Part shown: positions 18,195 through 57,028 of the stretch, piece by piece
Layout: each line of letters opens with the position of its first letter
Numbering within the stretch: position 1 is the stretch's first letter
Origin: Rhizobium phaseoli
Lineage (GTDB): Bacteria > Pseudomonadota > Alphaproteobacteria > Rhizobiales > Rhizobiaceae
Length of the DNA: 64,000 nt
Assembly: GCF_010668805.1 (NCBI RefSeq)
Contig: NZ_WUFT01000001.1
Span: 434,001-498,000 of the forward strand
Direction: 5' to 3'
The notes under the pieces: model-generated
The model's input: only the letters and a program-made list of their open reading frames with translations
The model's database searches: none
What the model was told of the DNA's origin: nothing
Translations under genes and position numbers: made by a program

Positions 18195-19379
18195 TCAGGC
18201 CGAGACCTTGGCAAGCGCCTTGGCGAAATCCTCGATCAGGTCGTCGGTATCCTCGATGCCGGCCGAAAGGCGGACCGTACCCGGGGAAATGCCGAGTTCG
18301 GCGCGCGCCTCCTCCGACAGGTTCTTGTGGGTGGTGGTTGCCGGATGGGTGATCAGGCTCTTGCTGTCGCCGAGATTGTTGGAAATCTTGACGATGTCGA
18401 GCGCGTTCTGCAGCGCGAAGGCCGCTTCCTTGCCGCCCTTCAGTTCGAAGGCGACGAGGGTCGAGCCGCCGGTCATCTGCTTGGCGATGATATCGGCCTG
18501 CGGATGGTCCTTGCGGCCGGGATAGATCACCTTGGCGACCTTGCTCTGCTCGGCGAGGAAATCGGCGATCTTCGCCGCATTCCCGGTCTGCTGCTTGACG
18601 CGCAGCGGCAGCGTCTCGATGCCCTTCAGCAGCGTCCAGGCATTGAACGGCGACATGGCCGGGCCGGTGTGGCGGAAGTAGTCGTGCAGGTTCTCGTCGA
18701 TCCAGTCCTTGTCTGACAGTACCACGCCGCCGAGGCAGCGGCCCTGGCCGTCAATATGCTTGGTGGCGGAATAGACGACGATATGGGCGCCGAGTTCCAG
18801 CGGTTTCTGGAACAGCGGTGTCGCGAAGACATTGTCGACGATGACCTTGGCGCCGACCTGGTTGGCGAGCTTGGCAACGCCTGTGATATCGACCACTTCG
18901 AGCGTCGGGTTGGTCGGGCTTTCCAGGAAGAACACCTTGGTGTTCGGCCGGATGGCCTTTTCCCAGTTGGCGAGGTCCCGGCCGTCGACCAGCGTGCACT
19001 CGATGCCGTATTTCGGCGCCAAAGTCTCGACAACCCAGCGGCAGGAACCGAACAGCGCGCGGGCCGCAACGATATGGTCGCCTGCCTTGACCTGGCAGAG
19101 CACTGCCGCGGTGACGGCCGCCATGCCCGAGGCCGTGGCGCGGGCGTCTTCCGCGCCTTCGAGCATGCACATGCGCTTTTCGAACATGTCGTTGGTCGGG
19201 CTGCCGTAGCGGGCGTAGATGTAGCCTTCCGTCTCGCCCTTGAAGCGGGCTTCGGCCGCCTCCGACGTCTCATAGACGAAACCCTGCGTGAGATAGATTG
19301 CTTCGGACGTCTCGCCATATTGCGAACGCAAGGTTCCGCCGTGGACGAGTTGGGTTGCCGGGCGCCAGGTCTTGCTCAT
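18195..19379 (-). CDS. metZ: O-succinylhomoserine sulfhydrylase MetZ
   Basis: MetZ is a cytoplasmic PLP enzyme that makes homocysteine directly from an activated homoserine and sulfide, for methionine synthesis. The 394-residue protein has the cystathionine-gamma-synthase fold with the PLP lysine at about 207 in YSATKHIDGQGR. It also has the YARYGSPTN and ESPTNPTLEV segments typical of the MetZ branch. The ATG at 19379 follows GAAGGTGATGG. A SAM-II riboswitch and a terminator precede it, so S-adenosylmethionine is expected to shut it off. Substrate choice (O-succinyl versus O-acetyl) is inferred from similarity. Confidence 0.94.
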   Translation of the reverse strand: MSKTWRPATQLVHGGTLRSQYGETSEAIYLTQGFVYETSEAAEARFKGETEGYIYARYGSPTNDMFEKRMCMLEGAEDARATASGMAAVTAAVLCQVKAGDHIVAARALFGSCRWVVETLAPKYGIECTLVDGRDLANWEKAIRPNTKVFFLESPTNPTLEVVDITGVAKLANQVGAKVIVDNVFATPLFQKPLELGAHIVVYSATKHIDGQGRCLGGVVLSDKDWIDENLHDYFRHTGPAMSPFNAWTLLKGIETLPLRVKQQTGNAAKIADFLAEQSKVAKVIYPGRKDHPQADIIAKQMTGGSTLVAFELKGGKEAAFALQNALDIVKISNNLGDSKSLITHPATTTHKNLSEEARAELGISPGTVRLSAGIEDTDDLIEDFAKALAKVSA

Positions 19380-19398
19380 GCCATCACCTTCACATAAC

Positions 19399-19429
19399 AA
19401 AAAAACCGGTCGCAAAAGCAGACCGGTTT
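19399..19429 (-). terminator. regulatory terminator of the metZ leader
   Basis: On the minus strand, ACCGGTC pairs with GACCGGT across a nine-base loop and is followed by seven T. It lies between the SAM-II aptamer and the metZ ribosome site. The upstream arm can instead pair with the aptamer's last stem strand (AGACCGG with CCGGTCT, 19420-19440), forming an antiterminator. Confidence 0.85.
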
Positions 19430-19433
19430 CAAC

Positions 19434-19493
19434 CCGGTCTTTTTAGCCACTTGTTTAACGTGGCTGCAAGCCGACCGGCCAAATCACCACGGG
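19434..19493 (-). ncRNA. SAM-II riboswitch upstream of metZ
   Basis: The minus strand carries the SAM-II core in order: P1 strand CGTGG, the loop GTGATTTGG, pseudoknot strand CCGGTC, the conserved CTTGCAGCCACG, then GTTAAA, CAAGTGGCTAAAAAG and closing strand GACCGG. Two helices of the H-type pseudoknot can be drawn (CGTGG/CCACG and CCGGTC/GACCGG). SAM-II elements precede methionine genes in alphaproteobacteria and turn expression down when SAM is abundant. Confidence 0.92.
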
Positions 19494-19573
19494 ATAATTC
19501 TGCAATACTGCTGTTAGCTGCTTGCGTCAATTCCCCGAGTTTGGTTTTGTCGGCGGCAAATGATGGATGAGGC

Positions 19574-20668
19574 ATGATGGCTCGTGAAACGGGAATTCTG
19601 GCGGACGGCGCGATAGCGGCGCTGTTCGAAACGGGTCGTCTGATCTCCGAACGGGAGCTGGACCGCGACCAGATCCAGCCGGCAAGCCTCGACCTGCGCC
19701 TGAGCGCCAAGGCTATTCGCGTGCGCGCCAGCTTCATGCCCGGCCCCGCCCATCGGGTGGCCGACAAGCTCGACCGGCTGAGCCTGCATGTGGTCGACCT
19801 TTCCGAAGGCGCGGTGCTCGAAACCGGCTGCGTCTACATCGTGCCATTGATGGAGAGCTTAGCGCTGCCGGCCGACATGTCGGCCTCGGCCAATCCGAAG
19901 AGCTCGACCGGCCGGCTCGACATTTTCACCCGCGTCATCACCGATTACGCCCAAGAATTCGACAAGATCCCGGCTGGCTATTCCGGCCCGCTCTATCTGG
20001 AAATCAGCCCGCGCACCTTCCCGATCGTCGTGCGCCGCGGCTCGCGCCTGTCGCAGATCCGCTTCCGCGTCGGCCATGCTTTGCTCAGCGAGCCGGAACT
20101 GTTGAAGCTGCATGAAAGCGAGACGCTGGTCGCCAGCAAGCAGCCGAACGTCTCCGGCAGCGGCATCGCGCTGTCGATCGACCTCGCCGGAGATGAAGAC
20201 GGCCTGATCGGCTATCGCGGCAAACACCACACCGCCGTCGTCGATGTCGACAAGAAGGCCCAGCACGATATCTATGATTTCTGGGAACCGCTCTATAGCC
20301 GCGGCCGCAACGAACTGATCCTCGATCCCGACGAATTCTATATCCTCGTCTCGCGCGAGGCCGTGCATGTGCCGCCGGACTATGCCGCCGAGATGACCCC
20401 GTTCGATCCGCTGGTCGGCGAATTCCGCGTCCATTATGCCGGCTTCTTTGATCCCGGCTTCGGCCATGCGCCGGCCGGCGGCCGCGGCAGCCGCGCCGTG
20501 CTCGAAGTGCGCAGCCACGAAGTGCCCTTCATCCTCGAAGACGGCCAAATCGTCGGCCGCCTGGTCTACGAGCACATGCAGGAAAAGCCGGCCAGCCTCT
20601 ACGGCTCCGGCCTCGGCTCCAACTACCAGGCCCAGGGCCTCAAACTCTCGAAGCATTTTCGCCTCTGA
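19574..20668 (+). CDS. dcd: 2'-deoxycytidine 5'-triphosphate deaminase family protein (double-domain Dcd/dUTPase fold)
   Basis: Dcd enzymes deaminate dCTP to dUTP for thymidylate synthesis. The N-terminal half of this 364-residue protein has the family's QPASLDLRLS motif (near 35-44) and the ANPKSSTGRLDIFTRV segment with the substrate-binding Arg/Ser. The C-terminal half repeats a beta-rich fold, so the protein is about twice the length of enterobacterial Dcd (about 190). Long forms of this kind are annotated in Rhizobiales. Two adjacent ATG codons (19574, 19577) are possible starts. It is divergent from metZ. The exact activity (deaminase alone or with dUTPase) is not certain. Confidence 0.85.
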   Translation: MMARETGILADGAIAALFETGRLISERELDRDQIQPASLDLRLSAKAIRVRASFMPGPAHRVADKLDRLSLHVVDLSEGAVLETGCVYIVPLMESLALPADMSASANPKSSTGRLDIFTRVITDYAQEFDKIPAGYSGPLYLEISPRTFPIVVRRGSRLSQIRFRVGHALLSEPELLKLHESETLVASKQPNVSGSGIALSIDLAGDEDGLIGYRGKHHTAVVDVDKKAQHDIYDFWEPLYSRGRNELILDPDEFYILVSREAVHVPPDYAAEMTPFDPLVGEFRVHYAGFFDPGFGHAPAGGRGSRAVLEVRSHEVPFILEDGQIVGRLVYEHMQEKPASLYGSGLGSNYQAQGLKLSKHFRL

Positions 20669-20726: not shown

Positions 20727-20800
20727 GCGGGTGTAGCTCAATGGTAGAGCAGCAGCTTCCCAAGCTGAATACGAGGGTTCGATTCCCTTCACCCGCTCCA
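20727..20800 (+). tRNA. tRNA-Gly (anticodon CCC)
   Basis: A cloverleaf is readable: acceptor GCGGGTG/CACCCGC, D-arm TAGCTCAATGGTAGAGCA, anticodon loop TTCCCAA with anticodon CCC, T-arm GGTTCGATTCC, discriminator T and encoded CCA at 20798-20800. It reads GGG glycine codons. Confidence 0.96.
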
Positions 20801-56648: not shown

Positions 56649-56858
56649 ATGAGCACAGGTACCGTTAAGTGGTTCAACGCAACCAAGGGCTTCGGCTTCA
56701 TTCAGCCGGATGACGGCGCTGCCGACGTTTTCGTCCACATCTCGGCCGTTGAACGCGCCGGCATGCGTGACCTCAAGGATGGCCAGAAGCTGTCTTACGA
56801 GCTCGTCCGCGACAACAAGTCCGGCAAAATGTCTGCAGACCGCCTCCAGGCGGCCTAA
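56649..56858 (+). CDS. cspA: cold-shock domain protein
   Basis: The 69-residue single cold-shock domain has RNP1 KGFGFIQ and RNP2 VFVHISAV. Such proteins bind single-stranded RNA and DNA, melt RNA structure and often rise on cold or growth transitions. The ATG at 56649 follows AAAAGGATATC. It stands alone, with a terminator about 95 bases after its stop. Which of several rhizobial Csp paralogues it is cannot be said. Confidence 0.96.
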
Positions 56859-56952
56859 ATCTTGACGCGTCCTCTTGGATGCGTGAAGTTTTGAATATCA
56901 TCTCCCTATCGTGACCACGGATGTACTGGCACGGTTCGTTGAGATGGCAGGG

Positions 56953-56977
56953 AAGGTCGGGTTAGCCCGGCCTTTTT
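56953..56977 (+). terminator. rho-independent terminator downstream of cspA
   Basis: AAGGTCGGG pairs with CCCGGCCTT (one G-U) around loop TTAG and is followed by TTT on the plus strand. Confidence 0.75.
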
Positions 56978-57028
56978 CGTATCTGGTCGGCCGATGCCGC
57001 GCCTCCTCAAGAACTGCCGTTCGAATTC

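Follow-up and report, generated by a model that had tools for sequence, protein, structure and literature searches.

The leader of the methionine-biosynthesis gene metZ of Rhizobium phaseoli lies on the minus strand of the 64,000-nucleotide stretch analysed here (contig NZ_WUFT01000001.1, positions 434,001 to 498,000; hereafter the window). The gene encodes a 394-amino-acid O-succinylhomoserine sulfhydrylase, identified with NF005696 at 801.6 bits against a cut-off of 675, while its divergent neighbor, encoding a 364-amino-acid dCTP deaminase, runs on the plus strand from 19574 and points away from the leader. The initial annotation had proposed a SAM-II aptamer before metZ, to be checked with a covariance search. 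When the whole 64 kb window was searched with the model RF00521, a full-length match (model positions 1-79 of 79) was obtained at 82.7 bits (cut-off 36, E 3.8e-17), and the aptamer and its parts were located where the annotation had put them, on the same strand as metZ. The P1 stem is present in the RF00521 alignment, and P2, the pseudoknot helix, can form as well through strands designated s1 and s1'. The features of the locus, in the order in which they would be encountered by RNA polymerase, are as follows.

19502-19530, minus strand: promoter-like TTGACG (19530-19525) and TATTGC (19507-19502) with a 17-base spacer (sequence reading; weak)
19422-19500, minus strand: SAM-II (SAM_alpha) aptamer, full-length match to RF00521 (covariance model)
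19473-19478, minus strand: s1, CCGGTC, 5' strand of the P2 pseudoknot helix (sequence, pair counts)
19434-19440, minus strand: s1', AGACCGG (GACCGG at 19439-19434), 3' strand of P2 and 5' strand of the predicted antiterminator (sequence, folding)
19420-19426, minus strand: s2, CCGGTCT (CCGGTC at 19426-19421), 3' strand of the predicted antiterminator and core of the terminator 5' arm (sequence, folding)
19406-19411, minus strand: s2', GACCGG, terminator 3' arm (sequence, pair counts)
19399-19405, minus strand: seven T, U tract of the intrinsic terminator (sequence)
19387-19391, minus strand: GAAGG, Shine-Dalgarno-like, 3' of the terminator and outside the aptamer (sequence reading)
18195-19379, minus strand: metZ, O-succinylhomoserine sulfhydrylase, 394 amino acids, ATG at 19379 (NF005696)

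The promoter-like hexamers would place the transcription start near 19495 ± 3, and the terminated RNA would then measure about 94-100 nt. A simple scan of 19300-19700 for terminators and consensus promoters flagged neither this pair nor the terminator, because TATTGC fails its rule for the second hexamer and because it allows loops of 3-8 bases, while the loop of the terminator hairpin has 9 unless the inner G-C clamp is counted.

The four arms of the leader follow one another in the order s, s', s, s' (CCGGTC, GACCGG, CCGGTC, GACCGG). The intrinsic terminator sits between the aptamer and metZ, and the predicted antiterminator shares one of its strands with P2 of the aptamer and the other with the terminator, AGACCGG (19440-19434) being fully complementary to CCGGTCT (19426-19420). 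Folded alone, the terminator hairpin reaches −17.4 kcal/mol (z −4.2) and the less stable antiterminator −11.7 kcal/mol (z −4.0), and each value was equalled by 0 of 200 shuffles.

The growing and the finished leader were folded with ViennaRNA, which cannot model a pseudoknot or SAM; to mimic the SAM-bound pseudoknot, the aptamer positions were blocked. In the leader with a free aptamer strand, the probability of the antiterminator is 0.62 as soon as s2 has been fully transcribed (3' end at 19420) and 0.90-0.93 at 3' ends 19412-19409, before s2' emerges. With the strand blocked, the terminator forms with a probability of 1.00 from 19406 on. At equilibrium, the antiterminator of the free leader stands at 0.79 with the 3' end at 19403 and at 0.33 by the last U, against 0.67 for the terminator at that point; through the start codon the values are 0.48 for the antiterminator versus 0.52 for the terminator, and with a slightly different 5' end the terminator reaches 0.82. 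Since the finished SAM-free leader leans to the terminator at equilibrium (P 0.52-0.82), any switch must be kinetic, and the folding models suggest that control would be decided during transcription, as is usual for attenuators of this kind, rather than at equilibrium. Folding was also applied to a wide set of 306 loci, which yielded 284 distinct leaders, 255 of them with a terminator and 210 of these belonging to metZ. In 191 of the 210, the P2 strand pairs with the terminator 5' arm at P > 0.5, and the mean probability of this pairing in metZ leaders is 0.91, compared with 0.30 when the aptamers are shuffled. Blocking the aptamer raises the terminator above 0.9 in 185 of the 210, while with a free aptamer it falls below 0.5 in only 44.

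RF00521 was found in all 60 genomes of a sample drawn from the genus, in 114 of 121 genomes of the family and in 227 of 297 genomes of the order, with the window's own genome counted each time. A metZ protein search in named genomes, from which the best 80 of 405 relatives were taken, has Rhizobium sp. CCGE 510 as the nearest of these (98% identity; records of the window's own genome may be excluded from this search), and the aptamer with its four-arm layout is present in 80 of these 80 loci. A sequence pattern for the aptamer fits 226 of 227 loci, detecting none at the remaining one (L215). The narrower four-arm pattern fits 126 of the 226; the other 100, with other registers, other genes or no terminator, were judged by folding only. 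Terminators were sought computationally with a loose hairpin search, which halts once a run of T with a hairpin is reached, and were found in 203 of the 226 loci (177 of 189 for metZ, 11 of 15 for metA and 15 of 22 for genes that are different or unassigned); a stricter version (196 of 226) took a few coding hairpins and was dropped. The search found no terminator in 23 of the 226 loci and, within 160 bases after the aptamer core, none in 29 of the 284 distinct leaders, 8 of which precede metA. These leaders (L154, L155, L161 and others) may be controlled at the level of translation, or their terminators may have been missed by the search.

An order-wide alignment of 68 distinct rows misplaced s2 in sequences from outside Rhizobiaceae; 19 rows were therefore left out, and pair counts were made on the other 49 distinct leaders, from the window's genus and named Rhizobiaceae. 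Among these, row L130 retains a one-base shift, from which several of the unpaired cells arise. The share of paired cells is 99.0% for P2, 98.2% for the antiterminator and 99.3% for the terminator, and sliding one column lowers these values to 52-54%, 45-47% and 55-62%, respectively. In the antiterminator, two pairs are changed on both sides, from A-U to G-C, in 9 cells; 9 cells were reached by 0 of 500 shuffles and two such pairs by 254 of 500, a comparison in which sequences of common descent can beat shuffles even without structure. One pair of P2 is changed on both sides, in 2 cells (reached by 18 of 500 shuffles), and changes in the terminator are one-sided only.

Of the 246 metZ loci among the 306, 135 match a slightly wider pattern, and the variable base of the arms was followed through these. 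Read in the order s1, s1', s2, s2', it is TATA in 49 loci, TATG in 48, TGCG in 14, CGCG in 13 and TGTG in 8, with CGTT, CGCC and TGTA in one locus each. All 135 loci allow a standard pair at this base in P2 and in the antiterminator, and 133 of them allow one in the terminator; the forbidden A-C combination of s1' with s2 occurs in none of the 135. On the metZ gene tree, s1' changes 7 times and s2 9 times. Three or four of the contrasts are independent and well supported; on average 2.4 and 2.9 of them are concordant, none is opposed and the rest are equal, and with so few events a sign test is not significant. The switching arms thus covary, but on few events. A paired change of the pseudoknot itself, the P2 variant CCGACC/GGTCGG, is seen in L229, L247 and L265, three metZ leaders found in the family but outside the window's genus; inspected by eye, s1' of L229 still pairs with s2 through G-U pairs.

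We propose that this leader acts as a SAM-II riboswitch and attenuates the transcription of metZ, stopping it when SAM is plentiful, a reading to which we assign a probability of about 0.9 and which the sequence and a close relative, S. meliloti (see below), support well. RNA polymerase would make the aptamer first. With enough SAM, which the aptamer at this locus would bind, the H-type pseudoknot would close and hold s1' (19439-19434) on s1 (19478-19473), leaving s2 free for s2', so that the hairpin and its seven U would end transcription after about 94-100 nt. When SAM is scarce, s1' would instead take s2 once it is made, and this antiterminator would keep the terminator arm busy while the polymerase crosses the U tract, allowing metZ to be transcribed. 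The initial annotation had read the arms in the same way: its pairing of AGACCGG with the terminator arm CCGGTCT and its terminator with seven T are both borne out, and its mutually exclusive terminator and antiterminator are supported by the sequence, by folding with and without a blocked aptamer and by conservation in relatives, where the covariation that it had asked for is present, though on few events.

The ON state may be more elaborate than this. In a nested double clamp, which we consider possible but rather unlikely, s1':s2 and s1:s2' would form together and capture both arms of the terminator. In the free leader the s1:s2' helix has a probability of 0.90 at 19406, 0.79 at 19403 and 0.33 at the last U, and its variable base can pair in 133 of the 135 loci. 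Conservation cannot separate the double clamp from the simple model, because the s1:s2' pairing follows from the other three helices. If the double clamp were true, the empty aptamer would itself take part in antitermination.

Other explanations of the arms were considered. The leader is GC-rich and the aptamer demands CCGG anyway, so that composition might produce complementary arms by chance. When arms were exchanged between loci, own arms paired at −12.4 kcal/mol and those of other loci at −11.5, an average cost of only about 1 kcal/mol; 29% of the swapped arms suit the window's s1' equally well, and in only 51 of 94 distinct pairs does the own arm outperform 95% of the shuffled ones. The swap test is, however, a weak one, since the CCGG core hardly varies. 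At the window locus, 0 of 100 shuffled arms match the observed pairing and 0 of 200 shuffles fold as well, and these results, along with the absence of the forbidden A-C pair, make a chance origin scarcely credible. More is to be said for a translational switch, in which SAM would hide the ribosome-binding site and the terminator-like hairpin would be incidental. As described in the consulted parts of the respective papers, the metX SAM-II element (PDB 2QWY), which shares the aptamer fold, has its ribosome-binding site inside P2 (PMC10907184), and reporter data back a translational role for Sinorhizobium meliloti metA (PMC9373788). In the window, by contrast, it is a terminator that follows the aptamer, and GAAGG (19391-19387) lies 42 bases beyond the last P2 base and past the terminator, so that P2 cannot cover it. 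By layout, a terminator is also present in 80 of 80 named metZ loci (best 80 of 405 relatives), and the hairpin search found one in 177 of 189 metZ loci. Translational control is very improbable as an account of this leader.

Alternatively, the terminator could be constitutive, capping most transcripts at any SAM level and mainly making a small RNA, with control left to the promoter and to RNA stability. In its favor, the equilibrium of the free leader leans to the terminator. In S. meliloti, moreover, according to the accessible text of PMC9373788, leader RNA greatly exceeds metZ mRNA in both media, and high SAM lowers promoter activity and stabilizes both RNAs. A constitutive terminator would not need an antiterminator, and the conservation of one therefore speaks against it: pairing on the exact P2 strand is kept in 98.2% of cells, with paired changes, and is possible at the variable base in 135 of 135 loci, and P2 constrains s1' but not s2 against s1', although the independent events are few. 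We regard a constitutive terminator as very improbable and retain SAM-dependent attenuation.

Transcriptional control by SAM-II had been presented in the initial annotation as noteworthy, on the grounds that many such elements are thought to act on translation. This did not hold up: many SAM-II elements were reported to carry terminators in 2005 and 2007 (PMC1273637, PMC2258182, in the portions consulted), and SAM-induced termination was predicted for S. meliloti metZ by Scheuer in 2022 (PMC9373788). The available text of the latter also describes a metZ leader RNA of about 100 nt in cells (the RZ small RNA), which rises while metZ mRNA falls when SAM or MetK is increased, the reverse being seen upon metK depletion; promoter and stability effects act alongside, and the in-cell data are correlative with respect to termination. 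The S. meliloti element (leader L113) has in common with the window the riboswitch class, the gene, the four-arm layout, the predicted SAM-induced terminator and an expected leader of about 100 nt. It differs by a few bases in the loops and by an s1' of GGCCGG, which gives U-G in P2 and G-U in the antiterminator where the window has U-A and A-U. As far as the portions consulted of the family descriptions go (Corbino et al. 2005, PMC1273637; Barrick and Breaker 2007, PMC2258182), the SAM-II/metA element RF00521 shares with the window its family, its pseudoknot, the likely position of the start site and the terminator between P2 and the reading frame, with no difference of substance, the descriptions being of the family and not of the window locus. 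Class, gene and mechanism are thus already published for close relatives, and little new is added here.

Further reports, each cited from part of its text, concern the same family. A comparative study of 2014 places SAM_alpha before metY in two alpha-proteobacterial lineages (26 of 30 genomes) and, in six genomes of Rhizobiales, most of them Rhizobiaceae, before metA (PMC4239095), and tandem SAM-II/SAM-V elements have a terminator after SAM-II (PMC9481103). In the consulted sections, PMC12218461 cites SAM-II and measures only the half-life of metZ mRNA, and PMC3723493 and PMC13273304 name SAM-II in their reference lists only. Our literature search, which covered some papers in part, found no experiment in which purified components were used to show directly that a SAM-II element terminates transcription in response to SAM; mentions of "in vitro" in the main text of Scheuer 2022 (PMC9373788), as far as it was available, refer to spike-in RNA and a reference title. 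Its short length, its well-defined arms and the single-position differences among its relatives would make the window leader a good template for such a direct test.

The switching strand of SAM-I (S box) riboswitches is that of the outer P1 helix, whereas in the window it is the pseudoknot strand, and the two aptamers are unrelated. Shared with the Gram-positive SAM-I elements, as they are described in the consulted part of PMC1273637, are termination by a ligand-bound aptamer, the action as an OFF switch and the association with methionine genes.

The genome carries a second SAM-II aptamer (L002, contig C103, 133064-133141) before a gene that matches the homoserine O-acetyltransferase MetA model at 478.5 bits. 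Its leader has a terminator and a predicted antiterminator (P 0.98), with a terminator probability of 0.95 when the aptamer is free. For S. meliloti metA, the available text of PMC9373788 states that an antiterminator driven by SAM-II could not be predicted; set beside the one predicted at L002, this suggests that rhizobia may not all share the same metA platform. In one genome of the 60-genome genus sample (G005), a third, weak SAM-II match (contig C13, 8684-8762, minus strand) scores 35.7 bits, just below the cut-off, and the other genomes of the sample have one or two matches each. Elsewhere in the window are a tRNA-Thr (CGT) gene at 912-987 on the minus strand, a tRNA-Gly (CCC) gene at 20727-20800 on the plus strand and, at 56854-56981 on the plus strand, a match to the small RNA family ar35 (RF02346; 46.8 bits, cut-off 45) that ends in a hairpin followed by T.
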